Below are positions 6,418 through 60,434 of a stretch of DNA of 64,000 bases, piece after piece. The translations under genes were made by a program, and so were the position numbers. The stretch lies in assembly GCF_900115815.1 (NCBI RefSeq), contig NZ_FOXV01000001.1, forward strand, positions 186,001 through 250,000. Reading direction: 5' to 3'. Origin of the DNA: Roseivivax halotolerans. Its GTDB lineage: Bacteria > Pseudomonadota > Alphaproteobacteria > Rhodobacterales > Rhodobacteraceae. The notes beneath the pieces are model-generated. The model worked only from the letters and a program-made list of their open reading frames with translations, did not search any database and was not told the DNA's origin. Position 1 is the stretch's first letter. The number at the start of each line of letters is the position of its first letter.

Positions 6418-6450
6418 AAGCCCGCCCTTGCCGACAGGGGCGGGCTTTGT
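6418..6450 (+). terminator. Rho-independent terminator of the sucA-lpdA operon
   Basis: AAGCCCGCCC (6418-6427) and GGGCGGGCTT (6438-6447) form a perfect 10-bp stem with a 10-nt loop and are followed by TTTGT. It separates the lpdA mRNA from the riboswitch just downstream. Confidence 0.8.
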
Positions 6451-6457
6451 CACATCT

Positions 6458-6620
6458 GGGTTGTGCAGGTGCCCCGCATGGGGAGAATCGGGAAGCCGGG
6501 GCAGCTCCGGCGCGGGCCCGCCGCTGTGACGGGGACGGGACGGCAATGCCACTGGAGCGATCCGGGAAGGCGCCGCGACCCGGACGATCCGAAGCCAGAA
6601 GACCGGCCTGCACAAAACCC
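6458..6620 (+). ncRNA. Cobalamin (adenosylcobalamin) riboswitch
   Basis: The 5' leader of bluB carries the cobalamin aptamer signature: AGGTGCC at 6467-6473, AGAATCGGGAAGCCGG at 6484-6499, the B12 box GCCACTGG with GGGAAGGCG at 6547-6572, and the closing GAAGCCAGAAGACC at 6591-6604. The order and spacing match the class found upstream of B12 synthesis and transport genes. Control is probably at translation, because the bluB ribosome site (6662-6668) lies about 50 nt past the aptamer, in GC-rich sequence that could pair. The exact 5' and 3' limits are estimates. Confidence 0.93.
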
Positions 6621-6674
6621 GCGCCCCGCGTAAGGACGGCGAGGCGGCGCAGCGTTTTGCAAGGGAGGCCTGCC

Positions 6675-20663: not shown

Positions 20664-20771
20664 TCTTGGGTTGGCCAAAATACCGCGGGGAGCGCGAGGG
20701 GCCGCGCCCCTCGCTCGCGGGATGATCGGAACGATCAGCCCGCCAAGGATGCGCGGGCCCAAGGCCCGCTC
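20664..20771 (-). repeat. Intergenic hairpin element, copy 1 of 3
   Basis: A 25-bp core (20666-20690, ending ATACCGCGGGG) is followed by three inverted repeats: a 9-bp stem at 20694-20714, TGATCG-GAA-CGATCA at 20723-20737, and GCGGGCC-CAA-GGCCCGC at 20753-20769. Read leftward from the HNH gene stop (20779) it becomes GC hairpins ending in CGCGGTATTTTGG, which looks like a terminator. The rightward coiled-coil gene ends just before it, so it may act for both directions. Related copies lie at 48784-48915 and 53000-53080. Confidence 0.8.
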
Positions 20772-44634: not shown

Positions 44635-45966
44635 CTATGCAAGGGCGCGTTCTGTCTCTGCCGCAACGCGCAAAAGCCGCGACTCGCCCCAAGGCGCGCC
44701 GTTGAGCAAAAGCCCCGCCGAGGGTGTGCCCGTCGGCAGGCTCACCCCCGCCAGACCCATGAGGTTGCCGACGCGCGTATTCCTGAGGGTGCGAAGGTTC
44801 TCCGACACATAATACTCGCCATCCGTCATCAGCCGCTCCGCCTCGGGCGGCAAGTTCGGCGTCGTGGGGCAGAGCACCGCATCGACGCCGGCGGTAGCCC
44901 GCGCCCATTCCGCGCGCACGGCTTTCATCCGCTCGACCGCCCGCAGAAAGGTCGCCGCCGCAACCTCTTTGCCCGCTGCGAAGCGCGACCGCACCGCGCC
45001 GAACATCAGATCGCCCTTCTCGTCGATGAGCGCGCCCCATTCCGCCCAGGCCTCAGCGGTGTAGAGAACGCCCGCATCGCCCATCGGACCTTCAAGCGCT
45101 GGAAAGTCGAAATCCACGATCTCTGCGCCCGCCGCCCGAAGCTTCGCGAGCACGGTCTCGTAGGCCTCGGCGATTGCCGGTGAGAGATCGTCTTCCACGA
45201 TCGTGCGAAGCCGGGCGAAGCGCCGTCCTGAAAGGCCCCCTGCCCTCCCCGGCACCGGCGGCTGCACGCCGTCCAGCGCCGCGAAGAGCGCCGCCGCATC
45301 GGCGACGTCGCGGCAGAGCGGCCCGACCGTGTCGAACCCTTTCGCCAGCGGCACCACACCTTCGAGGGGCAGCCGCCCCGAGGTCGTCTTGAGCCCCACA
45401 AGGTCATTCCATGCCGAGGGCACGCGGACCGATCCGCCGGTATCCGATCCGATGGCCGCGGCGGCGAGCCCGAACGCGACCGAAGCCGCTGCTCCCGACG
45501 AAGATCCCCCCGGAACGGCAGCTTGATCGTTCACGCAAGGCGGGGTGGCTGTCACCGGGTTCAACCCCAGCCCCGAAAAGGCGAGCTCGGACATATGCGT
45601 CTTGCCAAGGCAGACGAGCCCCATCGCGGCACCGTTCCGCAGCACGCGCGCATCCGCAGAGGGCACTCGTCCCGCCAGCATGGCAGAGCCCGCCTCCGTC
45701 GCGATCCCGGCCGTGTCGAACAGATCCTTCCAGCTCACCGGCACACCGTCGAGACGCGAGCGCCGCCGCCCGATGCGCGCGCGCTCCGCCGCCGCCTTCG
45801 CTTCCGCGCGGGCACGATCCGCGGTCACGCGCGCATAGATCCGGTCACGCAGCGGATGTTCGTCGATCTTCTCCAGAAAGGTCTCCGTCAGCTTGTCCGC
45901 GTCGATCTCACCGCGTCCGATGCCGTCGCCCAACGCAAGGGCGTTCATCTCCGTCCAATCGCTCAT
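44635..45966 (-). CDS. Amidase-signature family hydrolase
   Basis: The 443-residue protein has the Ser-cisSer-Lys triad of the family: Lys in GVPVSWKDLFDTAG (about residue 80), and GGSSSGAAASVAFGLAAAAIGSDTGGSVRVPSAWNDLVGLKTT. It may hydrolyse simple amides or act as an accessory to GatA, but no gatB or gatC is near, so a catabolic amidase is likelier. It lies downstream of the UbiH-type gene start across an 81-bp divergent gap. Confidence 0.88.
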   Translation of the reverse strand: MSDWTEMNALALGDGIGRGEIDADKLTETFLEKIDEHPLRDRIYARVTADRARAEAKAAAERARIGRRRSRLDGVPVSWKDLFDTAGIATEAGSAMLAGRVPSADARVLRNGAAMGLVCLGKTHMSELAFSGLGLNPVTATPPCVNDQAAVPGGSSSGAAASVAFGLAAAAIGSDTGGSVRVPSAWNDLVGLKTTSGRLPLEGVVPLAKGFDTVGPLCRDVADAAALFAALDGVQPPVPGRAGGLSGRRFARLRTIVEDDLSPAIAEAYETVLAKLRAAGAEIVDFDFPALEGPMGDAGVLYTAEAWAEWGALIDEKGDLMFGAVRSRFAAGKEVAAATFLRAVERMKAVRAEWARATAGVDAVLCPTTPNLPPEAERLMTDGEYYVSENLRTLRNTRVGNLMGLAGVSLPTGTPSAGLLLNGAPWGESRLLRVAAETERALA

Positions 45967-46047
45967 GCCGTCCTCCGTTGACCTTTCGAGACGCTAGCGG
46001 CGGGACGCCTCATGGACAATGCCGCGCACGAGAGCATATTTCGCCCC

Positions 46048-47271
46048 ATGAAGATGGATTGCGATATCGCCATAATCGGTGGCGGCCTTGCCGGTGGCAC
46101 GCTGGCCCTTGCGCTGGCTCACGCGGGCTTTGGCGTCACCTTGCTGGATGCCGCTCCGGCGGAGACCCACCGCGCGCCCGATTTCGACGGACGGTCCTAT
46201 GCGCTCGCGCTGACGTCGAAGCGTCTCCTGGCGAATCTCGGGCTCTGGGACGTGCTCGGCCCCGATAGCCAGCCGATGAATCGGATCAAGGTGACCGACG
46301 GGCGCGTCGGCGATGCCTCGGTCGCACTTGGCCTCGAGTTCGACAGCGCGGAACTCGAGGAAGGGCCGATGGGCCACATGGTCGAGGACCGGCACCTGCG
46401 CGCGGCTATGCTCGATGCGCTGGACGCCGCGCCGGGAATCGACCACCGCACCGGCACGCGCGTCACGAACCAAAGCGCGGCGGAACATGGCGCGACGCTG
46501 GCGCTTGAGGATGGACGTGACATCACCGCGCCCCTCGTGATCGCCGCCGATGGCCGCCAGAGCGGCACTGCCCGTCGCGCCGGCATCACGCGCACGGGAT
46601 GGGACTACCCCCAGACCGCGCTCGTCTGCGCCATTGCCCATGAGCGGGATCATGGCGGCACCGCCCACCAGCTCTTCCTGCCCTCCGGTCCGCTCGCGAT
46701 CCTGCCACTGACCGGCAACCGCTCCTCCATCGTCTGGAGCGAACGGCGCGGCCTTGCGGAAGACATCAACGCCTTGTCCGAAGAAGATTACCTGACCGTG
46801 CTGCGACCCCGTTTCGGGGATTTCCTCGGCGAGGTTTCACTCGCCGGCGCGCGCTACAGCTATCCTCTGAACCTGACGCTGGCCGACAGCCTCACCGCGC
46901 CCCGCCTCGCGCTCGTGGGCGATGCCGCGCACGGCGTGCATCCGATCGCGGGCCAAGGCCTCAATGCAGGTCTGAAAGACGTCGCGACGCTGGCCGACGT
47001 TCTGTCCTCCGCCCGCCGCCGGGGTGAGGATATCGGTGCGCCGCAGGTTCTGGACCGCTACGCGCGGTGGCGGCGCTTCGACACGTCAAGCCTCGGGCTC
47101 GCGACCGATGTCTTCAACCGCCTCTTCTCGAACGACAGCGCGGCGCTTCGGGCGATCCGCGATCTCGGCATGCAGGCGGTCAATGCCGCGCCCGGTCTGC
47201 GCCGGGTCTTCATGCGCGAGGCGGCAGGCCTTTCGGGCGAGTTGCCCGAACTCATGGCCCGCGAGCGCTGA
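46048..47271 (+). CDS. UbiH/UbiF-type FAD-dependent ubiquinone hydroxylase
   Basis: The 407-residue flavoprotein monooxygenase has IAIIGGGLAGGTLALALAHAG at the N-terminus, the middle motif LVIAADGRQSGTARRAGI and the FAD ribityl motif LALVGDAAHGVHPIAGQGLNAGLKDVATLA, the UbiH signature. It would hydroxylate a ring position during ubiquinone synthesis; position specificity (UbiH, UbiF or UbiL) cannot be told by eye. The ATG at 46048 starts just before the FAD domain. It is divergent from the amidase gene. Confidence 0.93.
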   Translation: MKMDCDIAIIGGGLAGGTLALALAHAGFGVTLLDAAPAETHRAPDFDGRSYALALTSKRLLANLGLWDVLGPDSQPMNRIKVTDGRVGDASVALGLEFDSAELEEGPMGHMVEDRHLRAAMLDALDAAPGIDHRTGTRVTNQSAAEHGATLALEDGRDITAPLVIAADGRQSGTARRAGITRTGWDYPQTALVCAIAHERDHGGTAHQLFLPSGPLAILPLTGNRSSIVWSERRGLAEDINALSEEDYLTVLRPRFGDFLGEVSLAGARYSYPLNLTLADSLTAPRLALVGDAAHGVHPIAGQGLNAGLKDVATLADVLSSARRRGEDIGAPQVLDRYARWRRFDTSSLGLATDVFNRLFSNDSAALRAIRDLGMQAVNAAPGLRRVFMREAAGLSGELPELMARER

Positions 47272-47274
47272 TCC

Positions 47275-47784
47275 TCAGCCCGGGCGCAGCCCGGTCTCGA
47301 CGAGCATGCCCTGCCGCTTGGCCTCGTAGTAGTAACCGCGCGCATACCAACTGACCGCAGTGCCGTGATCGCCGTCCGACAAAAGCCAGGCGCCGCGCAG
47401 GTATTTCACCGCGTATTTGAGGTTCGTCTCCGCATCCAAGAGATCCTCGGGCGCGCCGCGGAAGCCCATTGTTCGTGCGGTCGCGGGCAGGATCTGCATG
47501 AGCCCGTAATACGGCCCGTTCCGCGCCCAGGGCCGATGCGTACTCTCGCGAATGACGACGCGATGCACCAGCTTGCGCGGAACCTGATAATAGTCGGCAT
47601 ATTCGTTGATGAGTGCACGCAGCTCTTCGGTCTCGTTCGGGTGAAGCGGCGGATTGTAGCTGTCGACCGGTTCGGGCGCAGCGGCGAATTGCAGCCGCTC
47701 GGTCGATCCAAGGTCGGGAAGAGAACAGGCAGACAGAACGGAACCGAGTAAAAGAGCCAAGGCGAAACGAAGCATATCCGTCAT
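47275..47784 (-). CDS. Soluble lytic murein transglycosylase-type lipoprotein
   Basis: The 169-residue precursor has a lipoprotein signal with lipobox LSAC and an SLT domain in which the catalytic Glu is in VVIRESTHRPWARN, followed by YGLMQILPATARTMGF, LLDAETNLKYAVKYLRGAW and WYARGYYY, the family's GLMQ and AxxY motifs. It cuts glycan strands to anhydromuropeptides. A second ATG at 47775 is an alternative start. Its stop lies 3 bp from the facing hydroxylase gene. Confidence 0.9.
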   Translation of the reverse strand: MTDMLRFALALLLGSVLSACSLPDLGSTERLQFAAAPEPVDSYNPPLHPNETEELRALINEYADYYQVPRKLVHRVVIRESTHRPWARNGPYYGLMQILPATARTMGFRGAPEDLLDAETNLKYAVKYLRGAWLLSDGDHGTAVSWYARGYYYEAKRQGMLVETGLRPG

Positions 47785-47909
47785 CCGGAATTGTTGAACT
47801 GCCTCGCTTGTGCCCTCTGCCCATGATTCGCGCGACCCCGGCCTTGCGCGGTAGGCGGGGCGCCGCCCATCCCTTGCCAAATGCGCGGGCGCGCGCCAGT
47901 TTCGCGACC

Positions 47910-48782
47910 ATGACAGGCACGCTTCTTTCACTGGGTCACGGCTATTCCGCGCGCGCGCTGGCAGCGCGGCTTTTGCCGCAAGGCTGGACCGTGATCGGCA
48001 CGACCCGCGCTCCCGATAAGCTGGGCTCGCTCGCCGAGACCGGGATCGAGCCGATTCTCTGGGACCGCGAAGCGGTCGAGCGGGCCTTGGCCCGCGCCGA
48101 TCATCTCCTGATGTCCGCCGCCCCAGGCGACGAGGGCGATCCGGCCCTTGCGCTCGCACGCGACACCATCGCCGCGCGGGCACCAAATATCCGCTGGGCG
48201 GGCTATCTTTCCACCACCGGCGTCTACGGCGATGCGGACGGCGCGTGGATCGACGAGACGGCACCTCTCAATGCCCATAGCCGGCGCGGGCGCGCGCGCG
48301 TGAAAGCCGAAGCCGACTGGGCCGCGATACCCGGCCTGCCGATCCATATCTTCCGCCTTGCTGGCATCTACGGGCCGGGCCGCGGCCCGTTCGCCAAGGT
48401 CCGCGAGGGACGCGCACAGCGGGTGGTCAAACCCGGACAGGTTTTCTCGCGCACCCACGTGGAGGACATCGCCCGCGTGCTGGAAGCCTCCATCGCACAT
48501 CCGACCCCGGGCGAGGCCTTCAATGTCTGCGATGACGAACCCGCCCCGCCACAGGACGTGATCGCCCATGCCGCCGAACTGCTCGGCCTGCCGATCCCGC
48601 CCGAAGTCCCCTTCGACGAAGCCGACATGAGCCCCATGGCCCGCAGCTTCTATGCCGATAACAAACGCACATCGAACGAGAAGGTGAAGCACATGCTTGA
48701 CCTTGAAATGCGCTACCCGACCTACCGCGAAGGCCTCGCCGCCCTCTTGCGCGAGACCGAAGGGGACAGCGGCACGCCCTGA
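47910..48782 (+). CDS. NAD-dependent epimerase/dehydratase-like protein (YeeZ-type SDR)
   Basis: The 290-residue atypical SDR has a shortened nucleotide motif SLGHGYSARALAARL in place of GxxGxxG, then LLMSAAPGDEGDP, WAGYLSTTGVYGDADGAWIDE with the active-site Thr-Tyr, a diphosphate segment AGIYGPGRGPF and FSRTHVEDIARVLEAS. It resembles the YeeZ family of unknown substrate. The 125-bp gap to its left is divergent from the transglycosylase gene. Hairpin element copy 2 follows at once. Confidence 0.88.
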   Translation: MTGTLLSLGHGYSARALAARLLPQGWTVIGTTRAPDKLGSLAETGIEPILWDREAVERALARADHLLMSAAPGDEGDPALALARDTIAARAPNIRWAGYLSTTGVYGDADGAWIDETAPLNAHSRRGRARVKAEADWAAIPGLPIHIFRLAGIYGPGRGPFAKVREGRAQRVVKPGQVFSRTHVEDIARVLEASIAHPTPGEAFNVCDDEPAPPQDVIAHAAELLGLPIPPEVPFDEADMSPMARSFYADNKRTSNEKVKHMLDLEMRYPTYREGLAALLRETEGDSGTP

Positions 48783-48783
48783 T

Positions 48784-48915
48784 CTTTGGGTTGGGACAAA
48801 TACCGCGGGGGTGAATTGGCGGCCCCGCCGCCAAGAGGGGGCAGCGCCCCCTTCGCTGCCCGATGATCGGCACGATCAGCGGGCCAGACATGCCCCGCGC
48901 GGCACGCGCGGGACC
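48784..48915 (-). repeat. Intergenic hairpin element, copy 2 of 3
   Basis: A core at 48786-48810 (ending ACAAATACCGCGGGG) is followed by TTGGCGGC-CCC-GCCGCCAA (48816-48834), AGGGGGC-AGC-GCCCCCT (48836-48852), TGATCG-GCA-CGATCA (48864-48878) and CCCGCGCG-GCA-CGCGCGGG (48894-48912). All arms pair perfectly. It fills the gap between the epimerase stop and the dxs stop, so in dxs direction it forms GC hairpins ending GCGGTATTTG. Likely a bidirectional terminator or a mobile REP-like repeat. Confidence 0.85.
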
Positions 48916-48921
48916 GCTGTA

Positions 48922-50847
48922 TCAGGCGCGCTTTTCCATGCGCGCAACACCCAGGACGTCGAGAACTTTCGCCTCGATATCAGAGGCGTTCAGCCTTGCG
49001 ACGGCATACATGTCCGCCGGGCTCGCCTGGTCGATGAACGTGTCGGGCAGCACCATGGAGCGGTATTTCAGACCGGTATCGAACACGCCTTCCTCGGCCA
49101 GCAGCTGCGCGACATGGCTTCCGAAGCCGCCGATCGCGCCTTCCTCGATCGTCACGAGTGCCTCGTGATCCCGCGCAAGGCCGAGGATCAGTTCGCGGTC
49201 GAGAGGTTTCACAAAGCGCGCATCGGCGATAGTCGGATTGATGCCCCGCGCCTCCAGAGCCTCCGCGGCCTGCAACACTTCCTTCAGCCGCGCCCCGTAG
49301 GACAGGATCGCGACGCGTGCGCCCTCGCGGATCATCCGGCCCTTGCCGATCTCGAGGATTTCTCCCCGTTCCGGCATCTCCACACCCATGCCCTCGCCGC
49401 GCGGATAGCGGAACGCGATCGGCCCGTCGTCATGCGCCGCGGCTGTTGCGACCATGTGCTTGAGCTCTGCCTCGTCCGCCGCGGCCATCACGGTGAAACC
49501 CGGCAGATTGGCCAGATACGCCACGTCGTAGCTGCCCGCATGGGTCGCCCCGTCGGCACCGACGAGCCCCGCACGATCGATGGCGAACCGCACCGGCAGC
49601 CGCTGTATGGCGACATCGTGCACGACCTGGTCGAAGCCGCGCTGGAGGAAGGTCGAATAGATCGCCGCGAACGGCCGCATCCCGCCCGCGGCGAGGCCCG
49701 CGCAGAAGGTCACGCCGTGCTGCTCGGCGATACCCACGTCGAAGCAGCGCGACGGAAACCGCTCGGCCATCAGGTTGAGTCCGGTCCCATCCGGCATCGC
49801 CGCTGTCACCGCGCAGATCCGGCTGTCCTCCTCGGCAAGCTCCACCAACGTCTGACCGAAGACCTTGGTATAGGCCGGTGCATTGGAGGCCGCCTTCTTC
49901 TGCTCGCCCGAGCTCACGTCGAATTTCGCCGTCGCATGGCCCCGGTCCGGGCGGCCTTCAGCGGGCGCGTAGCCCTTGCCCTTCTTGGTGATGCAATGAA
50001 TGAGGATCGGCCCATCCGCCCGCGCCTTCACGGTCCTCAGGACCGGCAGCAGGCTTTCCATGTCATGCCCGTCGATGGGTCCGATATAGGAAAAGCCGAG
50101 CGCTTCGAAGAGCGTGCCTCCGACGGCCATGCCCTTGATCATGTCCTTGGCCCGCCTGGCCCCTTCGCGGAATGGCTCCGGCAGAAAGCTCACCGCTCCC
50201 TTGGCGACATCCTTCAGTGAATGGAACGGCGCCTCGGCATAGAGCCGCGAGAGATAGGACGACATCGCTCCCACGGGAGGCGCGATGGACATCTCGTTGT
50301 CGTTCAGGATCACGATCAGCCGTTTGCCGAGGTGGCCGGCATGGTTCATCGCCTCGTAGGCCATGCCCGCCGACATCGCGCCGTCGCCGATGACCGCGAT
50401 GGCATCGCCATGCCCCGTCTCGGACGCGCCGTTCAAATCGCGCGCCACCGCGAACCCCAGGCTCGCTGAAATCGACGTCGAACTGTGGGCCGCCCCGAAC
50501 GGATCGTAGGGGCTTTCGGAACGCTTGGTGAAGCCCGACAGCCCGTCCTTCTGGCGCAGCGTGCGGATACGGTCGCGCCGCCCCGTGAGGATCTTGTGCG
50601 GATAGCTCTGATGGCTCACATCCCAGACGATCTTGTCCCGCGGCGCATCCCAGACCGCGTGCAGCGCGACGGTCAGTTCCACGACGCCCAGCCCCGCGCC
50701 GAGATGCCCGCCCGTCTCGGAGACGGCCGAGATCGTCTCGGCGCGCAACTCGTCCGCCACCTGTCGGAGCTCGGTATCAGAGAAGGCCTTGAGGTCTGCC
50801 GGTGTATGGACGCGGTCAAGCAGCGGTGTTTGGGGGCGGTCGGACAT
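48922..50847 (-). CDS. dxs: 1-deoxy-D-xylulose-5-phosphate synthase
   Basis: Dxs condenses pyruvate and glyceraldehyde 3-phosphate with thiamine diphosphate, the entry to the MEP isoprenoid pathway. The 641-residue protein has [59 protein letters not shown] (ThDP GDG motif), [15 protein letters not shown] and a C-terminal transketolase domain ending [14 protein letters not shown] chose the ATG at 50847; a GTG at 50853 is two codons up. ispA lies 36 bp upstream on the same strand. Confidence 0.97.
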
Positions 50848-50883
50848 CGTCACTCACATCTGGTTCGGTCTGCCCGGAATGGA

Positions 50884-51747
50884 TCAGGCTTTCCGGGCGA
50901 TAACGAAGCGGGCGGCCTCGATCAAGCCGCGTGCCTCCTTGCCGTAGTCAGATAGGGCCGTCTCGGCGCTGTCCACCAGCTCGGCCGCGCGCGCCTTCGC
51001 GCCACCCAGCCCCAGGAGCGAGACGAAGGTGGCCTTGCCTCGATCGGCATCCTTGCCCGCCGCCTTGCCCATCGCCGCTGCGTCGCCCTCGATGTCGAGG
51101 ATGTCGTCGGCAATCTGGAAAGCGAGGCCCAGCGCATCGGCATAGGCCCGCATCGGCGCGGAATCAGCCCCGGCAAGGCGCGGACCCGCTTCCGCGGCCC
51201 AGCGAATGAGCGCGCCGGTCTTGCCCGCCTGGAGGGCCGTGATCTCCTCGAGGTCTAGCGGCGTGCCCGCGCTCTCGGCGGCAATATCGAGCGCCTGGCC
51301 CAGAACCATGCCCTCCGCCCCGCTCGCACGTGCGAGGCTCAGGGCGAGATCCGCACGCACCGACGGATCGGGATGCGCCTCGGGCGCAAGGCAGAGCTCG
51401 AAGCCCAGCGCCTGCAGACCGTCCCCCACCAGGATCGCGGTCGCCTCGTCCCATTTTCGATGCACGGTCGGCTGACCGCGCCGCAGATCATCGTCATCCA
51501 TCGCCGGCAGATCGTCATGAACGAGGCTGTAGGCATGCACGGCCTCGATGGCGAGCGCGGCATTCAGCGCATCGCCCGCGCCGTGCAGCCGCGCGCCTTC
51601 AAGTGCGAGATAGCCGCGCAGGCGTTTACCGCCGCGCGTGGCATAGGCCATCCCGCGGTGAAGCGGCAGATCCGCGCGGGCCTCGAAAAGCCTGTCGAAC
51701 CCGCCCTGGATCCGGGTCTGCGCCTCCGTCAGTCCGGCCTCGAACAT
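50884..51747 (-). CDS. ispA: Farnesyl diphosphate synthase (polyprenyl synthetase)
   Basis: This enzyme adds isopentenyl units to give farnesyl (or geranylgeranyl) diphosphate. The 287-residue protein has RGGKRLRGYLALEGARL, the first Asp-rich motif DDLPAMDDDDLRRG and the second DDILDIEGDAAAMGK, plus KTGALIRWAAEAG. With dxs next, it makes the prenyl precursors that ubiA and quinone synthesis use. xseB starts 6 bp upstream in the same direction, giving the usual order xseB-ispA-dxs. Confidence 0.95.
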   Translation of the reverse strand: MFEAGLTEAQTRIQGGFDRLFEARADLPLHRGMAYATRGGKRLRGYLALEGARLHGAGDALNAALAIEAVHAYSLVHDDLPAMDDDDLRRGQPTVHRKWDEATAILVGDGLQALGFELCLAPEAHPDPSVRADLALSLARASGAEGMVLGQALDIAAESAGTPLDLEEITALQAGKTGALIRWAAEAGPRLAGADSAPMRAYADALGLAFQIADDILDIEGDAAAMGKAAGKDADRGKATFVSLLGLGGAKARAAELVDSAETALSDYGKEARGLIEAARFVIARKA

Positions 51748-51753
51748 GCGAGG

Positions 51754-52002
51754 TCAGAGCCCCTCGACCGGGGTCGTCCCCTTGGGCTGGCCCTCGGCGT
51801 CGAGCGTGATCGCCGCGACCTTTTCCTCGGCCTCTTTCAGCTTCTGCTCGCAACGCTTCTTGAGCTTCGCACCGCGTTCGTAAAGCGCGATCGACTGCTC
51901 GAGCGGCACGTCCCCGCGTTCGAGTTGCCCCACGACCTCTTCAAGTGCGCGCATCGCTTCCTCGAAACTCATCTCTTCGACGGGCTTGCCTTCGTCGCTC
52001 AT
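51754..52002 (-). CDS. xseB: Exodeoxyribonuclease VII small subunit
   Basis: The 82-residue protein has the XseB core MSFEEAMRALEEVVGQLERGDVPLEQSIALYERGAKLKKRCEQKL, a helical hairpin that binds XseA. XseA is not in the window. Start overlaps the stop of the histone-deacetylase-like gene as ATGA. Confidence 0.95.
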   Translation of the reverse strand: MSDEGKPVEEMSFEEAMRALEEVVGQLERGDVPLEQSIALYERGAKLKKRCEQKLKEAEEKVAAITLDAEGQPKGTTPVEGL

Positions 52003-52925
52003 TCGCCTGCCTCCATCAATGCGCGCACATGCGCCGCCCCGGCCTCGGACAGCGCCTGAAGATCATAGCCGCCCTCGAGTGTCGAGACCACGCGGCCGCC
52101 GCAGACCTCGCTGGCCAGCTCGCAAAGCCGCTCGGTCAGCCAGCGGAAATCCTCGGTCTGCCAGTTCAGGTTGGCCAGCGGATCGTCGGCATGGGCATCG
52201 AACCCTGCCGACAGGATGATGAGCTCGGGGGCGAAATCCCGCAGCCGCGGGAAGACCCGGTCCTCGTAGACCTCGCGCATCCGCGACCCGTCGCTCCCGG
52301 GCGGCAGCGGCAGGTTCAGCACGTTGTCATGGGCTCCGGTCTCGTGCGACGCGCCGGTGCCGGGCCAGAGCGGCGACTGGTGCGAGGTGATCGTCAGCGC
52401 CCGCCTCTCGTGCCAAAGAAGATCCTGAGTGCCATTGCCGTGATGCACGTCGAAATCGACGACAGCCACGCGCGAAAGACCCCGCGACTCGAGCGCGTAT
52501 TTCGCACCGATTGCCGCGGTCCCGAACAGGCAGAAGCCCATCGCCGTCGTCCGTTCCGCGTGATGGCCGGGCGGGCGCATCGCAACGAAGGCATTGGCGA
52601 CCTCGCCGTCCAGCACCATGTCGATGGCCTTCACGATCCCCCCCGCCGCGCGCCGCGCCGCATCGAGCGATCCCGGCGACAGCCAGGTATCCCCATCGAC
52701 CTGATGCAAGCCCCGCGACGGCAGATGGCTCTCGAGCGAGCCGATATAGCTCGGCGGATGACAGCGCTCGATATCGCTGTCCTCCGCCAACGGCGCGGGC
52801 ACGCGCATCAGCGGGAAGGCGGCCAGCGCATGCAGGAGATGCTCGATCCGCGCCACCCGCTCGGGATGACCTTCGGGCGTGACGTGATGCAATGCGGCGT
52901 CATGGGTGAGAAGGGCAGTGACCAA
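51999..52925 (-). CDS. Histone deacetylase-like (acetoin utilisation / acetylpolyamine amidohydrolase) family protein
   Basis: The 308-residue zinc hydrolase has MRPPGHHAE, DFDVHHGNGTQDL, SLHQSPLWPGTG and ILSAGFDAHADDPLANLNW, the His-His and Asp-His-Asp zinc site of the family. Bacterial members deacetylate polyamines or unknown proteins. It is first in a leftward row with xseB, ispA and dxs, a layout that recurs in this order in alphaproteobacteria as I recall; a metabolic link with isoprenoids is not evident. Confidence 0.92.
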   Translation of the reverse strand: MVTALLTHDAALHHVTPEGHPERVARIEHLLHALAAFPLMRVPAPLAEDSDIERCHPPSYIGSLESHLPSRGLHQVDGDTWLSPGSLDAARRAAGGIVKAIDMVLDGEVANAFVAMRPPGHHAERTTAMGFCLFGTAAIGAKYALESRGLSRVAVVDFDVHHGNGTQDLLWHERRALTITSHQSPLWPGTGASHETGAHDNVLNLPLPPGSDGSRMREVYEDRVFPRLRDFAPELIILSAGFDAHADDPLANLNWQTEDFRWLTERLCELASEVCGGRVVSTLEGGYDLQALSEAGAAHVRALMEAGE

Positions 52926-52999
52926 GGCGCATCCTTTCCTGAACGGGCTCGAACAAACCGCGAAACGGCGCCGCTGGCAACCCGGTGACCGGCGCCCCC

Positions 53000-53080
53000 T
53001 TTGGATTGGGACAAATACCGCGAGAGCGCGAGAGCTGGCTCTCGCCGGCCGGGTCCGGGGCTCGATGCCCCGGGACCGGA
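53000..53080 (-). repeat. Intergenic hairpin element, copy 3 of 3
   Basis: A core at 53001-53025 (ACAAATACCGCGAGA) is followed by GCGAGAGC-TG-GCTCTCGC (53028-53045) and GGTCCGGGGC paired with GCCCCGGGACC (53052-53077, one bulged base). It lies between two leftward genes, 5 bp after the GlsB stop, and 75 bp before the deacetylase-like start. The TGATCG hairpin of copies 1 and 2 is absent here. Confidence 0.75.
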
Positions 53081-53084
53081 CGCG

Positions 53085-53321
53085 CTAGCGCCGCCAGTGG
53101 GTCGGCACGATGATGAGCGCGCCAACCGAAGCCAGAATCGCGTTCCAGCCCTGTCGGCCAAAACCGATGCCGAACATGATCGAAACGAAATAGAACAGGA
53201 AGGCGCCGCCGACGCAGATGATGACGCTGGCAAGCACACCGTTATGCGTGAAGCCGGACCGCTCCGAGAGATATCCGACGATGCCCGCGATCACCACGGT
53301 GCCGATCAGGGTTGGGAACAC
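53085..53321 (-). CDS. GlsB/YeaQ/YmgE-family stress-response membrane protein
   Basis: The 78-residue protein has three membrane segments: FPTLIGTVVIAGIVGYL, GVLASVIICVGGAFLFYFVSIMFGIG and AILASVGALIIVP, with GFGRQGW between the last two, the usual build of the family. Function is unknown; members are induced by stress. It is just downstream of fmt (6 bp). Confidence 0.88.
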   Translation of the reverse strand: MFPTLIGTVVIAGIVGYLSERSGFTHNGVLASVIICVGGAFLFYFVSIMFGIGFGRQGWNAILASVGALIIVPTHWRR

Positions 53322-53327
53322 CTCGCC

Positions 53328-54245
53328 TCACTCCTCTCCGAGCCGATCGCCCGGGACAAGACCTGCCCCGCGCAGGAACGCATCGGCATCCTGCGCACCG
53401 CGTCCTGCCTTCTGCAAGCGCGTAACTTCGATCGCGCCATCGCCGCAGGCGACGCGGAGGCCGGGCCCGCCCAGGACTTCGCCCGGCGCGCCCTCCCCGT
53501 CCGACATCCGGCTCCCGAGAAGTTTCAGCCGCTCGCCACGCGCCTCGGTCCAGGCGCCGGGAAAGGGGGCAAGCGCGCGGATCTGCCGATCGACGATACG
53601 GGCGGGCCGCGTCCAATCGATACGGGCCTCCGATTTCTCGATCTTGGTCGCGTAGATCACGCCCTCGTCGGGCTGCGGTTCAGGGGTGAGCGTGGACAGC
53701 CTCGAAAGCGTGTCGACGATCATCCGCGCGCCCATCTCCGACAGCCGGTCGTGCAGGGTCTCGCTTGTCTCCTCCGCTGCGATCTCGGTCGCCTCGGCCA
53801 TGAGGACGGGGCCGGTATCGAGACCCGCTTCCATCTGCATCACGGCGATGCCGGTCATCCGGTCGCCTGCGAGGATCGCGCGCTGGATGGGCGCGGCCCC
53901 GCGCCAGCGAGGCAGGAGGGACGCATGGATGTTGAGGCAGCCGTAATCCGGTGCATCGAGGACCGGCTGGGGCAGGATCAGCCCGTAGGCGACGACCACC
54001 GCGACCTCGGCCTCGAGCGCAGCAAAGGCCGCCTGCTCGTCAGCTCCCTTCAAGGATGCCGGGTGGCGCACCTCCAGCCCAAGTTCGAGTGCGCGCGCGT
54101 GGACCGGGGTCGGCCGGTCTTTCTTGCCGCGCCCGGCGGGCCGGGGCGGCTGGCAATAGACCGCGGCGATCTCGTGTCCGGCCGCCGCCAGCGCCTCCAG
54201 GACCGGAACCGAAAAGTCCGGCGTGCCCATGAATACGACGCGCAT
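53328..54245 (-). CDS. fmt: Methionyl-tRNA formyltransferase
   Basis: Fmt formylates initiator Met-tRNA with 10-formyl-tetrahydrofolate. The 305-residue protein has [59 protein letters not shown] (formyl-transfer HxS..  motif) and [18 protein letters not shown] precedes the ATG. In many relatives def lies next to fmt; here the neighbour on that side is an alanine symporter, and no def gene is in the window. Confidence 0.96.
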
Positions 54246-54313
54246 CGCGCACCAACTCCTTTTGTCTGTCCCACCCGGCTTATCGCGCCGGGCGGATCAG
54301 GAAAAGGGTGGCC

Positions 54314-55846
54314 TCATTTCACCTTGCGGATCTCGCCCGAGCGCAGCTTCTCGGAATATTTCCGAAGCTCCTGCTTCACCAGCGGCATCAGGAAGTAGAG
54401 CCCGATCACGTTGAAGATCGCCATCGAGAAGAGCGCCGCATCGGAGAAGGCGATGACCGGATCCAGGCTCGCCGCCGCTCCGATCACGACGAAGAAGCAG
54501 AAGATCGCCTTGAAGACGAGCTCCTTGCCCTTGCCTTCGCCGAATAGGAAGGTCCAGGCCTTGAGGCCGTAATAAGACCAGCTCAACATCGTCGAGAAGG
54601 CAAAGAGCACCACCGCGACGGCCAGCACGATCGGGAACCAGGAGAACGCCGTCGCGAAGGCGTCCGAGGTCAGCGCGACACCCGTTGCCCCCGACTGGGT
54701 CACGATCTGACCGTTCTCGACCACGAAGAGCCCGGTCTCGGGATCGGTGACGAGTTGATCGGAGATGATGATGACAAGCGCGGTAATGGTGCAGATCACG
54801 ACCGTGTCGATGAAGGGCTCGAGAAGCGCGACGAAGCCCTCGGTGATCGGCTCCTTGGTTTTCACCGCCGAGTGGGCGATGGCCGCCGAGCCGATGCCCG
54901 CCTCGTTCGAGAAGGCGGCGCGCCGGAAGCCCTGGATCAGCGCCCCGACCATGCCGCCGGCGACACCGAGCCCGGTGAAGGCGCCCTCGATGATGCGGCT
55001 GAAGGCGATGCCGATCTGGTCGAAATTGGCGAGGATGATGACGAGCGCCGCAAGGACGTAAAGGATGCCCATGAAGGGCACGACCTTCTCCGTGACACGG
55101 GCGATGGATTTAAGACCGCCGATGATGACGACCCCGACGATCACCGCGAAGACGATGCCGGTAATCCAGCCGGGATATTCCCCTACAACGCCAGAGATCT
55201 GCTGGTGCGCCTGGTTGACCTGGAACATGTTGCCGCCGCCGAGGGCGCCGAGCAACGTGAAGACCGAAAAGCCCACGGCAAGGAAAGTGCCGCCGGGAAG
55301 GCCGCGTTCCTTGAACCCCTTGGTGAGGTAATACATCGGCCCACCCGAGACGCTGCCGTCCGGGAACTCGTTGCGATATTTCACGCCAAGCGTGCACTCG
55401 GTGAATTTCGTCGCCATGCCCAAAAGACCTGCCAGGATCATCCAGAACATCGCGCCGGGCCCGCCGATGCTCATCGCCACGGCGACGCCCGCGATATTTC
55501 CGAGCCCGACCGTGCCCGAGAGCGCGGTCGCGAGCGCCTGGAAATGGCTGACCTCACCGGCATCGTTCGGGTCGGAATAATCGCCTTTCACAAGGCGGAT
55601 CGAATGTCCCACCCAGCGAAACTGCACGAAGCCGAAATAGAGCGAGAAGACCACCGCGCCGATCACCAGCCAGCCGACGATCCAAGGCACCTCGGTGCCG
55701 GGAAAGTTCGCGAAAATCAGGTCCACGTACCAGCCCGTCGAGCTTTCGAAGAGGCCGTTGATGGTCTCGTCGAGCGATTGCGCCTGCGCGCCCGTGGCCG
55801 CGAGGAGCGCGGCGAAGAAAACGAAGATGCGAGAGATGACTGACAT
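54314..55846 (-). CDS. Sodium:alanine symporter (AGCS family)
   Basis: The 510-residue inner-membrane protein has about eleven helices and the AGCS markers HFQALATALSGTVGLGNIAGVAVAMSIGGPGAMFW and FRRAAFSNEAGIGSAAIAH. It takes up alanine or glycine with Na+. An N-terminal stretch (AALLAATGAQAQSLDETINGL) looks like a cleavable signal, an unusual extra that moves the first true helix to about residue 55. It follows uspA-type gene by 12 bp in one leftward unit. Confidence 0.93.
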   Translation of the reverse strand: MSVISRIFVFFAALLAATGAQAQSLDETINGLFESSTGWYVDLIFANFPGTEVPWIVGWLVIGAVVFSLYFGFVQFRWVGHSIRLVKGDYSDPNDAGEVSHFQALATALSGTVGLGNIAGVAVAMSIGGPGAMFWMILAGLLGMATKFTECTLGVKYRNEFPDGSVSGGPMYYLTKGFKERGLPGGTFLAVGFSVFTLLGALGGGNMFQVNQAHQQISGVVGEYPGWITGIVFAVIVGVVIIGGLKSIARVTEKVVPFMGILYVLAALVIILANFDQIGIAFSRIIEGAFTGLGVAGGMVGALIQGFRRAAFSNEAGIGSAAIAHSAVKTKEPITEGFVALLEPFIDTVVICTITALVIIISDQLVTDPETGLFVVENGQIVTQSGATGVALTSDAFATAFSWFPIVLAVAVVLFAFSTMLSWSYYGLKAWTFLFGEGKGKELVFKAIFCFFVVIGAAASLDPVIAFSDAALFSMAIFNVIGLYFLMPLVKQELRKYSEKLRSGEIRKVK

Positions 55847-55858
55847 GGTCTGGCTCCT

Positions 55859-56293
55859 TCAGGGAAGGATGGTGCAGGGCACAGGCGAGACCTGGACCAG
55901 CGTTGCGGCGGTGGAGCCGAAAAGACGGGCCTTGAAGGCCGAAGAGCCATCGCGACCGACGAAGATCTGCCGGGCTTTCTCGGACTTGGCGAGCTCGACC
56001 AGGATCTCGGCGGAATGGCCGTAGCGGATCACGGGCGACACCTCGACGCCGTGTCCCGAGACCCGTTCGAGCGCAGGCGTGACCACGGCGCTTTCGGCGC
56101 GGGCCAGCTCTTCCTTGCGGCGGCGGTGGCGCTCGGCCAGCTCTTCCTGCGTCAGAAACGAATACGGCGACCATTCGAGAACATGGACAAGAATGATCGG
56201 CGTGGACGCTTCGACCGCTTGCGCGATGGCGACATCGAGCGCCCGATCCGAAGCGGGGCTGCCGTCATAGCCGACGATGAATGGATCTGACAT
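55859..56293 (-). CDS. Universal stress protein (UspA family)
   Basis: The 144-residue protein has FIVGYDGSPASDRALDVAIAQA, VVTPALERV, and VGRDGSSAFKARLFGSTAATLVQVSPVPCTILP; the ATP-binding G-x2-G-x9-G-(S/T) loop is recognisable as GRDGSSAFKARLFGST. The start codon choice follows the GGAG seven bases before. It stands 12 bp before the alanine symporter, so it may be a cytoplasmic partner that senses ATP for the transporter; this is inference. Confidence 0.9.
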   Translation of the reverse strand: MSDPFIVGYDGSPASDRALDVAIAQAVEASTPIILVHVLEWSPYSFLTQEELAERHRRRKEELARAESAVVTPALERVSGHGVEVSPVIRYGHSAEILVELAKSEKARQIFVGRDGSSAFKARLFGSTAATLVQVSPVPCTILP

Positions 56294-56420
56294 GGGAAGG
56301 CTCCGGCTGTGGGAACAATGGAGTTCACCTAGCGCAGATGTGAAGTGCGGCCAAAGAATTGTTTTCCCAACGCATGACGCAAGGAACGCAAGAGCGGCCT
56401 TGCAAGGCAAGACCGCTCAG

Positions 56421-56452
56421 AAAATACGCGGCGCGGCCCCGAAGGGCCACGC
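56421..56452 (-). terminator. Terminator of serA
   Basis: On the minus strand a stem of about nine pairs (GCGTGGCCC with GGGCCGCGC) around a TTCG loop is followed by GCGTATTTTC. It starts 14 bp after the serA stop. A second imperfect hairpin with 11 of 12 pairs lies at 56392-56418. The tail resembles the CGCGGTATTTT of the dispersed elements. Confidence 0.8.
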
Positions 56453-56466
56453 GATATCCGCCCGTG

Positions 56467-58062
56467 TCAGGCGACGTCGAATTGCAGGTTGCGGATCTGC
56501 CGGAACAGACCGGTCTCGTGCAGTTCCTTCAGCGCCTCTGGCTTCACCGCCTCGTCGACGTAGAGAAGCGCGATCGCCTCGCCCTTGGCTGCCGAACGCC
56601 CGAGGGTAAAGTTCGCGATGTTCACGCCGTTCTTGCCCATCGTCGTGCCGAGCGTGCCGATGATGCCAGGCACGTCCTCGTTCGTCGTGTAGAGCATGTG
56701 GCGGCCGATCTCGGCGTCGATATTGATGCCCTTGATCTGGATGAAGCGCGGCTTGCCGTCCGAGAAGACCGTCCCGCCGATGGAGCGCTCGCGCTTGTCG
56801 GTTGCGACCGTCACCTTGATATAGCCCTCGAAGGCACCCGATTGCGCCTGCCGCGTGGTCGAGATCTTGATCCCGCGCTCCTTCGCGATGAGCGGCGCGG
56901 AGACCATGTTCACCTCGGGATTGATGCTCTTCATGATCCCCGCGATCAGGCTGCAATTGAGCGCCTCGAGATTCATCTCGGATACCGAACCGTCATAGAG
57001 GATGTTGATCGCCTTGATCGCCTCGTCGGTCATCTGCCCGATGAAGCTGCCGAGGTGATCGGAGAGCTTGATCCACGGCCCCATGACCTTGGCCTCTTCG
57101 GCGGTCACAGACGGCATGTTGAGCGCGTTCTGCACGGCACCGGTCAACAGGTAGTCGGCCATCTGCTCGGCGACCTGGAGTGCCACGTTCTCTTGCGCCT
57201 CGGTGGTCGCCGCGCCCAGATGCGGGGTGCAGACGACGTTCGGCAGGTTGAAGAGCGGGTTCTCCTTGGCCGGCTCCTCGGCGAAGACGTCGAAACCCGC
57301 ACCGGCGACATGGCCCGACTTCAAAAGCTCGGCCAGCGCCGACTCGTCGACGAGCCCGCCGCGCGCGCAGTTGATGATCCGCACGCCCTTCTTCGTCTTC
57401 TCGAGGTTCTCCTTGGAGAGAATGTTCTTCGTCTGGTCGGTCAGTGGCACATGCAGCGTGATGAAGTCGGCGCGGCTCAAAAGCTCATCGAGCTCGACCT
57501 TCTCGACGCCCATCTTGTCGGCCTTTTCCTGGCTGAGGAACGGATCATAGGCGACGACCTTCATCCGCAAGCCCCGCGCGCGGTCGCAGACGATGCCGCC
57601 GATATTGCCCGCGCCGATGACGCCAAGGGTCTTGCCCGTCAGCTCGACCCCCATGAATTTCGACTTCTCCCACTTGCCAGCGTGGGTCGAGGCCGAAGCC
57701 TCCGGGATCTGGCGGGCAACGGCGAACATCATCGCGATGGCGTGCTCGGCGGTCGTGATCATGTTGCCGAAGGGCGTGTTCATCACGATGACGCCCTTCT
57801 TGGACGCCGCCTCCTTGTCGATATTGTCGGTGCCGATGCCGGCGCGGCCGATCACTTTCAGGTTCGGCGCATTCTCGAGGATCGTCGGCGTGACCTTGGT
57901 GGCCGAGCGGATCGCGAGACCATCGTAGTCACCGATCACCTCGGCGAGCTTGTCCTTGTCCTTGCCGAGGTCGGGCTGGAAGTCGACCTCGATGCCGCGG
58001 TCGCGGAAGATCTGCACCGCAGCGTCAGACAGTTTGTCGGAGATGAGAACCTTGGGAGCCAT
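56467..58062 (-). CDS. serA: D-3-phosphoglycerate dehydrogenase
   Basis: SerA oxidises 3-phosphoglycerate to 3-phosphohydroxypyruvate, the first step of serine synthesis. The 531-residue long form has the NAD site LGVIGAGNIGGIVCDRA, the active-site NCARGGLVDESAL and HLGAATTEAQENVALQ with His, then an ASB domain and a C-terminal ACT domain (IQIKGINIDAEIGRHMLYTTNEDVPGIIGTLG) for serine feedback. It is the last gene of the serC-serA leftward unit and ends at a terminator. Confidence 0.97.
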   Translation of the reverse strand: MAPKVLISDKLSDAAVQIFRDRGIEVDFQPDLGKDKDKLAEVIGDYDGLAIRSATKVTPTILENAPNLKVIGRAGIGTDNIDKEAASKKGVIVMNTPFGNMITTAEHAIAMMFAVARQIPEASASTHAGKWEKSKFMGVELTGKTLGVIGAGNIGGIVCDRARGLRMKVVAYDPFLSQEKADKMGVEKVELDELLSRADFITLHVPLTDQTKNILSKENLEKTKKGVRIINCARGGLVDESALAELLKSGHVAGAGFDVFAEEPAKENPLFNLPNVVCTPHLGAATTEAQENVALQVAEQMADYLLTGAVQNALNMPSVTAEEAKVMGPWIKLSDHLGSFIGQMTDEAIKAINILYDGSVSEMNLEALNCSLIAGIMKSINPEVNMVSAPLIAKERGIKISTTRQAQSGAFEGYIKVTVATDKRERSIGGTVFSDGKPRFIQIKGINIDAEIGRHMLYTTNEDVPGIIGTLGTTMGKNGVNIANFTLGRSAAKGEAIALLYVDEAVKPEALKELHETGLFRQIRNLQFDVA

Positions 58063-58111
58063 GTCAGTGGTCCTTTGAATGAACGATATTGGAGAGGACC
58101 GGGCCCGCCGC

Positions 58112-58156
58112 CCGAGACGTCACGTGACGTCTCGGACGAAATCCATATGGATTTCG
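58112..58156. repeat. Two adjacent perfect palindromes between serC and serA
   Basis: The first palindrome (58112-58135) has the 12-bp arm CCGAGACGTCAC and its exact complement; the second (58137-58156) has the arm CGAAATCCAT and its exact complement. One base separates them. They lie 20 bp after the serC stop and 50 bp before serA. No T-run follows either. They could cap or stabilise the serC mRNA, or be a binding site with the CACGTG centre. Confidence 0.85.
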
Positions 58157-58175
58157 GACCCGGCGGAAACCGGGA

Positions 58176-59330
58176 TCAGGCCGCTTCGGAAAGCGCCGCG
58201 TATTCGGTGTGGTAGGCCCATTCGAGCCAGGGCAGCATCGCCTCGATATCGGAGGTCTCGACCGTGCCGCCGCACCAGATCCGAAGACCTGCCGGCGCAT
58301 CGCGGTAGGAGCCGACATCGAGCGCGACGCCCTCGGCCTCGAGCCGCTTCTGAACCGACTTGGCGAAAGCCGCGGGATCCGAGATCGCGCCGTCGGTGAA
58401 CTTGAGGCAGACCGAGGTGTTCGACCGGGTCGCACGATCCTGCGCGAGGTTGTCGATCCAGTCCCGGCTCTCGCAGAAGTCCCAGACCGCCTGCGCGTTG
58501 GCATCGGCCCGCGCCATCAGGCCCTTGAGGCCACCGACAGAGCGCGCCCAGTCGAGCGCGACGAGGTAATCCTCGACCGCGAGCATGGAGGGCGTGTTGA
58601 TCGTTTCACCGATGAAGATGCCTTCGTTGAGCTTTCCGCCTTTGGTCAGGCGGAAGATCTTCGGCAGCGGCCAGGGCGGCGTATAGCTCTCGAGCCGCTC
58701 CACCGCGCGGGGGCTCAGGATGAGGATGCCATGCGCGGCCTCACCGCCCAGCACTTTCTGCCAGGAGAAGGTCGTCACATCGAGCTTGTCCCAGGGCAGA
58801 TCCTGCGCGAACGCCGCCGAGGTCGCATCGCACAAGGTCAGACCCGCGCGATCCGCGGGGATCGCCTCACCCGACGGCATCCGCACGCCCGATGTCGTGC
58901 CGTTCCAGGTGAAGCAGACGTCGCGGTCATAATCGAGCGACGCCATGTCGACGATCTCGCCATACTCGGCGGTATGAACCGTGTGCTCGATCTTGAGCTG
59001 CTTGACCGCGTCGGTGACCCAGCCTGCGCCGAAGCTTTCCCAGGCGACCATTTCGGCGGGCCGCTCGCCCAGCATCGTCCACATCGCCATCTCATAGGCG
59101 CCCGTGTCGGATGCCGGCACGATGCCGATGCGGTAGTCATCAGGAACGCCCAGGATCTCGCGCGTGCCATCGATCGCGGCTTTCAGCTTGTCCTTGCCCA
59201 CCTTCGCGCGGTGGGACCGGCCAAGTGCCGCATCCGAGAGCATATCGAGGGAGAAACCGGGGATCTTGGCGCAAGGGCCAGAGGAAAAACGCGGGTTTTC
59301 CGGCCGCGTGCCGGGTTTGGTCAACGCCAT
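58176..59330 (-). CDS. serC: Phosphoserine aminotransferase
   Basis: SerC turns 3-phosphohydroxypyruvate into O-phosphoserine with PLP. The 384-residue protein is the alphaproteobacterial type: [61 protein letters not shown] and the PLP Lys in [15 protein letters not shown]. It is cotranscribed with serA and has a structured leader at its 5' end. Confidence 0.96.
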
Positions 59331-59340
59331 ATCTGTCTAA

Positions 59341-59396
59341 CCTTCCAGATAGAAGCCCCTCGTTGGGGAGGGGTGTCCCGCGGACGCATCTACTGC
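59341..59396 (-). ncRNA. Candidate serC RNA motif (leader structure of serC)
   Basis: On the minus strand, immediately before the serC ribosome site GGAAGG (59341-59346), an outer stem CAGTAGATGC/GCTTCTATCTG (one bulge, one mismatch) encloses two hairpins: GTCC-GCG-GGAC and CCCCTC-CCCAAC-GAGGGG. The position and shape fit the serC motif described upstream of serC in alphaproteobacteria; I match it from memory. The stem touches the ribosome site, so control of translation is likely. Confidence 0.65.
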
Positions 59397-59555
59397 CCGC
59401 CCCTTTGTTCCACAAGTCGCAAAAGAGCCGTGCGGCGACCTTTCGCAGCGCAAAAGCGGCATCGGTGGAGCGGATCGGAAACTTCTCGGCGCAAGCCTTT
59501 CAGGCGCGGGCCTGCCGGTTTATAGCGCGATCATGTCCATCCGAGGCTAAGCTCC

Positions 59556-60434
59556 ATGTCCCATGTCGTCACGCTTCTCACCGCGCCCAGCGCGCCATCG
59601 CTAGAACCTGCGGCGGCCGAGGCGCTCCGCAATGCCTGGGGTGGCGGCGCGATTCATTGGCTCGCCCCGGATGAAGCCTGCGAGTTCGAAGTGCCGGGCT
59701 GTCCGGTGAACCTCGCGCAGGTCTGGCAGGATCTTCAGGCTCTGAAGATCGATCTTGTCTGCCAGCCCGCCGAAGGACGCCTGAAACGGATGCTCCTCGC
59801 GGACATGGACTCGACGATGATCCAGCAGGAATGCATCGACGAGCTGGCAGACGAGGCCGGTGTCGGCGAGCGGGTCAAAGAGATCACCGCCCGAGCCATG
59901 AACGGTGAGCTCGACTTCGAAGGCGCACTCATCGAACGCGTCTCGTTGCTCAAGGGACTTCCCGAAGCGGTGATCGCGCGCGTTTTGGCCTCCCGTATCT
60001 CGCACATGCCGGGCGGACGTGAATTGGTGGCAACGATGCGTGCCAATGGCGGTTACGCGGCGCTCGTCTCCGGCGGGTTCACGGCCTTCACGGGCGCTGT
60101 CGCCGAGGCGCTCGGTTTCGATGAACACCGCGCCAACACGCTTCTGATCGACGGCGGCACGCTGACGGGAGAAGTCGCTCGGCCGATCCTCGGACGCGAG
60201 GCCAAGGTGACGGCTCTGGAAGAGATCACCCGGCGGCTCGGCATCAACGAGAGCGATGTGATCGCAGTCGGGGACGGCGCGAACGATCTTGGCATGATCC
60301 AGCGCGCCGGAACGGGCGTGGCTCTGCATGCCAAACCGTCGGTTCAGGCCGAAGCCGAACACCGGATCAACTTCGGCGACCTGACGGCGCTCCTCTACAT
60401 CCAGGGCTACGCGAAAACCGAATTTGCCGCTTAA
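59556..60434 (+). CDS. serB: Phosphoserine phosphatase
   Basis: SerB releases serine from phosphoserine. The 292-residue HAD enzyme has the nucleophile motif LLADMDSTMIQQEC (Asp83, Asp85), SGGFTAFTG as motif II, and the C-terminal motif VIAVGDGANDLGMIQRAGTG. The first 70 residues form the small N-terminal domain of the long SerB class. It is divergent from serC, so all three genes of serine synthesis lie within 4 kb. It converges with the asparaginase gene with a 4-bp overlap. Confidence 0.96.
   Translation: MSHVVTLLTAPSAPSLEPAAAEALRNAWGGGAIHWLAPDEACEFEVPGCPVNLAQVWQDLQALKIDLVCQPAEGRLKRMLLADMDSTMIQQECIDELADEAGVGERVKEITARAMNGELDFEGALIERVSLLKGLPEAVIARVLASRISHMPGGRELVATMRANGGYAALVSGGFTAFTGAVAEALGFDEHRANTLLIDGGTLTGEVARPILGREAKVTALEEITRRLGINESDVIAVGDGANDLGMIQRAGTGVALHAKPSVQAEAEHRINFGDLTALLYIQGYAKTEFAA

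Follow-up and report, generated by a model that had tools for sequence, protein, structure and literature searches.

Genome-specific tails on mosaic hairpin repeats at gene ends in Roseivivax halotolerans and related bacteria

Gene-end copies in the window and across the genome

The window, a 64,000-nt stretch of Roseivivax halotolerans contig NZ_FOXV01000001.1 (positions 186,001 to 250,000), contains three copies of an intergenic element, each beside the end of a leftward open reading frame: an HNH ORF, dxs, and glsB, respectively (Table 1). The three sites named in the initial annotation were confirmed, as were their gene-end position and the exactly pairing hairpins of 7 to 9 bp, with differing arm sequences, beside the cores. 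On the minus strand, each copy has a 24-nt tail of the form CGCGGTATTT-N3-CCAAYCCAA(AG/GA), preceded by at least two exact GC hairpins. Rightward genes also stop at 20656 and 48782, within about 10 nt of the starts of copies 1 and 2, which therefore lie in convergent gaps. The identity of copies 1 and 3 to copy 2 had been put at 22 of 25 bases; counted over the 25 bases ending in CGCG with copy 2 as the reference, it was 19/25 for copy 1, in which three of the mismatches were free N3 bases, and 23/25 for copy 3. The serA terminator, proposed to carry a related tail, had only CGCGTATTTT in common with the element; it lacked the conserved second half and was left out of the family.

Table 1. Positions of the element copies and of Rfam features in the window
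Feature	Position	Strand	Sequence or remark
Copy 1 tail	20664..20687	-	CGCGGTATTT-TGG-CCAACCCAAGA (minus-strand letters)
Copy 1 linker	20688-20693		GCTCCC
Copy 1 proximal hairpin, class i	20694..20714	-	GCGAGGGGC-GCG-GCCCCTCGC
Copy 1 second hairpin	20717..20743	-	CTGATCG..CGATCA module, GCGGGCTGATCG-TTC-CGATCATCCCGC
Copy 1 third hairpin	20753..20769	-	GCGGGCC-TTG-GGCCCGC; about 10 nt from stop of leftward HNH ORF (20779)
Copy 2 tail	48784..48807	-	CGCGGTATTT-GTC-CCAACCCAAAG
Copy 2 linker	48808-48815		TTCACCCC
Copy 2 proximal hairpin, class ii	48816..48834	-	TTGGCGGC-GGG-GCCGCCAA
Copy 2 second hairpin	48836..48852	-	AGGGGGC-GCT-GCCCCCT
Copy 2 third hairpin	48859..48883	-	CTGATCG..CGATCA module; dxs stop at 48922
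Copy 3 tail	52999..53022	-	CGCGGTATTT-GTC-CCAATCCAAAG
Copy 3 linker	53023-53027		GCTCT
Copy 3 proximal hairpin, class i variant	53028..53045	-	GCGAGAGC-CA-GCTCTCGC
Copy 3 second hairpin	53049..53079	-	CCGGTCCCGGGGC-ATCGA-GCCCCGGACCCGG; glsB stop at 53085
Cobalamin riboswitch	6450-6625	+	Rfam; ordinary
serC leader	59332-59383	-	Rfam; ordinary

A search of the full 3.77-Mb genome with the pattern CGCGGTATTTNNNCCAAYCCAAAG, allowing up to three mismatches, gave 67 matches, and the reversed control gave none; the family is therefore not due to chance, and the window copies belong to a multicopy element. According to a rough, home-made gene caller, 65 of the 67 copies were intergenic, compared with 9% of a 464-kb sample that was intergenic DNA; the two copies called genic both have hairpins, and their calls probably reflect errors of the gene caller. 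Convergent genes flanked 28 copies, co-directional genes 32, and divergent genes 7. In the 464-kb sample, gaps 60 nt or longer numbered approximately 25, 134, and 66, respectively, so that convergent gaps held 28/67 copies while making up 11% of the gaps. The expectation that copies elsewhere would be tied to gene ends was thus borne out.

The constant orientation toward the leftward gene in the window proved to be a local accident. Genome-wide, the 32 co-directional copies comprised 22 hairpin-first and 10 core-first cases (21 versus 10 without the one copy called inside a gene; two-sided p 0.07), and one core-first copy is really convergent, because the gene caller misses the HNH ORF beside copy 1. 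Twelve copies on plasmids of Ruegeria sp. TM1040 and Leisingera, placed against the annotation, were all intergenic or at a gene end; five were convergent, two hairpin-first, and five core-first (two of these five being orthologous), so no fixed orientation is apparent. A one-way terminator is not supported, because 10 of the 32 co-directional copies in the genome and five versus two on the plasmids were core-first. Three pairs of tails in the genome face each other as inverted copies (G000:C31:290927/290971, C31:267067/267111, and C29:168404/168574; G000 is the window's genome), two with a spacing of about 20 nt and the third with one of 146 nt; in two of the pairs, one partner is without a clear GC hairpin.

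Toward the tail, the element consists of a GC hairpin, a class-specific linker, GGTATTT, three free bases, and CCAAYCCAAAG. The stem-linker combinations were GCGAG..CTCGC with GCTCCC, TTGGC..GCCAA with TTCACCCC, CCGGG..CCCGG with ACCCCC, and GTGGG..CCCAC with ACCCC. A perfect stem of at least 5 bp was present in 66/67 copies and one of at least 7 bp in 61/67, with a mean stem score of 22.5 versus 9.7 after the upstream 45 nt were shuffled. The copies thus have the GC stem-loop of an intrinsic terminator; a T-run directly after the stem is not found, the end of the stem and TATTT being 9 to 14 nt apart in 59 of 66 copies (mode, 11 nt). A terminator scan of window positions 45000 to 64000, which covered copies 2 and 3 only, returned a single inner stem, a weak one at copy 3. 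The intrinsic-terminator reading of the initial annotation therefore stands as to position and is strained by the distance between stem and T-run. The hairpins had also been described as covarying, and 34 distinct stems scored 0.645 versus 0.144 when shuffled and no more than 0.124 when slid. Only perfect stems had been taken as rows, which inflates the effect size, and the score demonstrates varied arms rather than testing pairing independently.

The tail is conserved over about 22 bp with sharp edges and three free bases inside, partly because the search demanded it, and CCAAYCCAA is near-invariant beyond what the search required. One tail is common to hairpin classes i to iv in the window's genome. 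The N3 bases were linked weakly to hairpin type (p about 0.003 to 0.007) and not to the pre-tail or to Y, and five copies were alike in hairpin, pre-tail, and N3. The tail as a hairpin partner (TTTGGG..CCCAAA) was discarded as a general explanation, since it works for some N3 triplets only. By eye and across dialects, GG before TATTT often accompanied CC after N3 (GGU..ACC), resembling a mini-stem around AUUUNNN.

Genome-specific tails behind shared hairpin classes

When four tail positions were left open, YCCA occupied them in 43 of 45 copies of the window's genome and GAAG in 66/66 copies of a sister species (G149) and 38 of the 39 listed among 55 copies of G151, with no control matches. A looser pattern, with one to three control matches per genome, found CCAAG(C/A/T)TGAAG in 28 of 30 matches in G156 and GAAAGGTGAAG in 12/18 matches of G152 and 22/27 of G155; genomes G150, G153, and G154 each gave four matches, mostly due to chance. 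Every relative found with the element has another tail. Among 84,980 species genomes, which possibly leave out the source genome itself, the dialect of the window's genome had four exact matches, with about 3.7 expected by chance; by title these belonged to Verrucomicrobiales, Neisseria, Bacteroidales, and Algoriphagus, and none was alphaproteobacterial. In genomes of the 148 other genera of the taxonomic family, up to three mismatches yielded 25 matches in 23 genomes, whereas the reversed control yielded 11 matches spread over 10 genomes, and at least one of the 25 (L064) sits behind a hairpin that carries another tail. The core is thus species-private. The initial annotation's statement that similar strings occur in Rhodobacterales gaps accordingly applies to the hairpin and linker and fails for the core.

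A tail-blind pattern, consisting of a hairpin arm and linker only, after which the downstream letters were printed, matched in 49 of 149 genera; a few rows were chance matches, and two genomes had one control match each. In three genera, with all rows listed, one private tail each accounted for 8/8, 11/11, and 11/11 rows. One tail was present in 6/8 rows of G144 and 8/9 of G066, two tails divided G148 (3/8 and 5/8), and three tails divided G110 (16, 7, and 3 of the 26 listed among 36), where the tail type matched the pre-tail bases (GGAG or AGAG, GGGG, and GGGA) in 26/26 listed rows. In the window's genome, the main tail followed in 18/20 cases and a second tail in 2/20. This minor second dialect (G000:C27:9452-9491 and C32:18103-18142) has a class i hairpin and the form GGAG-TATTT-NNN-GCCAGATCATG. 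Outside the taxonomic family, one or two matches each came from 12 of 187 class-level genomes, and by eye none was element-like.

A scan by hairpin class, covering stretches of each genome, gave the same picture of private tails. The main tail followed in 11/13 rows from G000, the other two being the inner hairpin of a composite and a row that is not an element. G156 had 10 elements in 16 rows (8 with one tail and 2 with another) and 6 non-elements. In G155, 10 of 13 rows were elements and 3 were not; the seven of class i had one tail, and the three of classes ii and iv had another. Element rows numbered 3/3 in G152, 3/4 in G154, 3/3 in G151, and 1/2 in G150, and none appeared in the 40 kb scanned of each of G149 and G153. 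By a rough class test, loci selected by their tail departed from classes i to iv in 12/22 cases in G149, 7/21 in G151, 14/17 in G155, and 4/4 in G152. A fifth class, in which a small CCTCCGGCGGGAG hairpin abuts TATTT, was seen in G149 and G151 (loci L212, L217, L236, and others) with canonical spacing and the same tail. The hairpin classes are common to the genus and partly to the family, and the tail is genome-specific; because both the tail-blind searches and the class scan turned up private tails, the hairpin classes look older than the tails.

Tail differences at orthologous sites and signs of spread

Downstream of dxs, the element was found in four species (G000, G156, G152, and G155), each with a different tail, and three of the four carry CTGATCG..CGATCA and TTGGCGGC-type hairpins. 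The CTGATCG..CGATCA module, present in window copies 1 and 2, also occurs downstream of dxs in G152 and G155. The same gap in G154 had another TATTT tail, and no element was seen in 190 nt of it in G149, G150, G151, and G153. Twelve sites of the window's genome had a facing ortholog in the part of G156 that was compared; by eye, within 190 nt, the element was present at six, doubtful at one, and absent from five, and the G156 elements had G156 dialects, some with a different hairpin class. The same comparison in G155 found the element at 5/12 sites.

In the speB-TetR gap of Leisingera, three tails stand behind a near-identical hairpin: ACCAGAAAGAAG in NJS204, NJS201, M527, and M658, and also in L. 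thetidis with a different pre-tail; GCAAAGGTGAA in S132; and GGAAAGATGAA in L. caerulea S185. When L. thetidis is compared with S185, both flanks align by eye and the tail alone differs, and in L. caerulea S141 and M561 the gap is 48 nt long and the element is absent. The Leisingera plasmids, searched whole, contained both tail kinds mixed, mostly each with its own pre-tail. Within the window's genome, composite copies about 60 nt long made up two pairs with different N3 bases, and in G156 second-dialect copies formed seven tandem pairs, 128 to 155 nt apart (14/31 copies). The composite pairs, the tandem pairs, and the presence or absence of the element among L. caerulea strains look like repeat spread, and the five copies alike in hairpin, pre-tail, and N3 are a further sign of it. 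Copying of whole elements as the sole cause was rejected, since four hairpin classes share one tail and N3 is only weakly linked to hairpin type.

Interpretation and relation to known systems

A private tail implies that the many copies of one genome are acted on together. The elements are probably REP/BIME-like mosaic repeats at gene 3' ends that an agent homogenizes genome by genome. The initial annotation's interpretation as a whole is partly supported. The repeats form an interspersed group at the level of the taxonomic family (Rhodobacterales by the named matches). In each, one or more GC hairpins of a few classes are joined to the class linker, which is followed by a GG(A/G)TATTT-like stretch, some three free bases, and a tail of 10 to 12 nt. 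From their position and hairpins, they may end or protect transcripts, serving as a 3'-end module, either a hairpin-protected end or a terminator, that would be usable from either side. Classical intrinsic termination from the stem is unlikely for most copies, because the T-run is weak and distant. The agent would copy or convert tails inside a genome, leaving one or a few dialects, and the hairpin classes would persist longer. Several observations count against this reading: the weak T-run lies far from the stem, core-first copies make up 10 of the 32 co-directional cases, no mobilizing enzyme was found, many tails stand outside classes i to iv in the rough class test, and N3 varies between otherwise equal copies, contrary to what simple recent copying would lead one to expect.

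Our first choice is copying or conversion by a putative agent, with a co-evolving factor as the bolder option. In the latter, a rather unlikely account, the tail would be the putative binding site of a termination or roadblock factor with drifting specificity, and the dialects would be factor-site pairs co-evolved by selection. The sharp motif edges and the free N3 between near-invariant halves fit such a site, as do the single tail across hairpin classes i to iv, the swap of tails between aligned flanks in L. thetidis and S185, and the agreement of pre-tail bases with tail type in the listed G110 rows. The two or three tails in G110, G148, G155, G156, and the window's genome (2/20) would require several factors, however; no candidate gene was identified, and a factor that has dozens of sites generally changes slowly, which counts against the idea. 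Ordinary intrinsic terminators, with tails made alike by composition or a common mechanism, would account for a GC stem followed by TATTT at gene ends, but they are improbable given a species-private tail conserved downstream of the T-run, a stem-to-T-run distance of about 11 nt, and above all the dialect data, which weigh heavily against them.

DNA-uptake signals (DUS/USS-like) placed in terminators would also come as genome-specific dialects with a gene-end bias and inverted pairs, of which the window's genome has three, and a comparable pattern appears for Neisseriaceae in sections of PMC3630211. This origin is very improbable and was rejected on copy number and placement: the element has 67 copies, 65 of them intergenic and none clearly genic, rather than the hundreds to thousands, many in genes, of uptake signals, and its tail adjoins the stem without forming it. 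REP elements driven by RAYTs are extremely improbable, even though the repeats are palindromic, interspersed, genome-specific, and partly in tandem pairs, and some carriers in the family (e.g., G097) have a Y1 transposase. This enzyme (PF01797) was detected in 0/9 genus genomes and 15/149 genera and was not found in carriers G000, G005, G078, G110, and G139; with no cognate Y1 transposase in the genus genomes, a RAYT origin was dismissed. By eye, neither GTAG nor a similar tetranucleotide stands beside the stem in linkers of the GCTCCC, TTCACCCC, ACCCCC, and ACACCCC types.

The joint change of dozens of scattered sites from one sister species to another needs a cause, be it a mobilizer, conversion, or a factor that co-evolves, and the present analysis found none of the three. 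A broader proposal is possible, if tentative: a fast-changing agent with sequence specificity, either a termination factor or an enzyme that copies, might read the genome-private gene-end dialects and, within a genus, rewrite scattered 20-bp sites by the dozen and in concert. The dialect-like tails of about 20 letters, which have one or a few fixed versions per genome and change by species, suggest a process that keeps scattered gene-end signals in step. The system is small and occurs in many genera, including named cultured marine bacteria (Leisingera and Ruegeria), so that the concerted evolution of short noncoding signals becomes directly testable; the elements could also mark species and horizontal transfer and bear on transcript ends in alphaproteobacteria.

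The element is dispersed, extragenic, palindromic, multicopy, and mosaic, as broadly expected of REP/BIME-like repeats. It shares with REP, BIME, and REPIN sequences (PMC2817692, PMC3116915) a short palindromic, interspersed, mosaic, and genome-specific makeup, tandem or inverted pairs, and an extragenic location; unlike them, it has an asymmetric conserved tail beside varying hairpins, no GTAG was seen, and no RAYT was found in its genus. The CGTC-tagged palindromic repeats, mostly from alphaproteobacteria, are likewise hairpin repeats without a dedicated transposase in the sections of PMC3733652 that describe them. By eye, the element has no CGTC tag; their two outer AT pairs occur in class ii and not in classes i, iii, and iv, and a long private tail is not part of the description in those sections. 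Dialects of DNA uptake sequences in terminators are also genome-wide, private, and tied to terminators, according to sections of PMC3630211 and PMC13020248; compared with them, the element has more than tenfold fewer copies, gene ends as its only location, and a tail outside the stem.

No description of the element was found in open-licence PMC, which does not prove its absence from print. No Rfam family scored above the gathering threshold in the three copies (copy 1 gave chance-level matches only), so a known Rfam RNA was set aside, as was a phage origin, the one element searched having no phage match. Rhizobium intergenic mosaic elements (RIME) are mosaic intergenic palindromes in alphaproteobacteria, and the element resembles them in these general respects. 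Bidirectional intrinsic terminators with a hairpin occur between convergent genes; the element is like them in position and hairpin and unlike them in its one-sided T-run, 11 nt away, and its conserved private tail.
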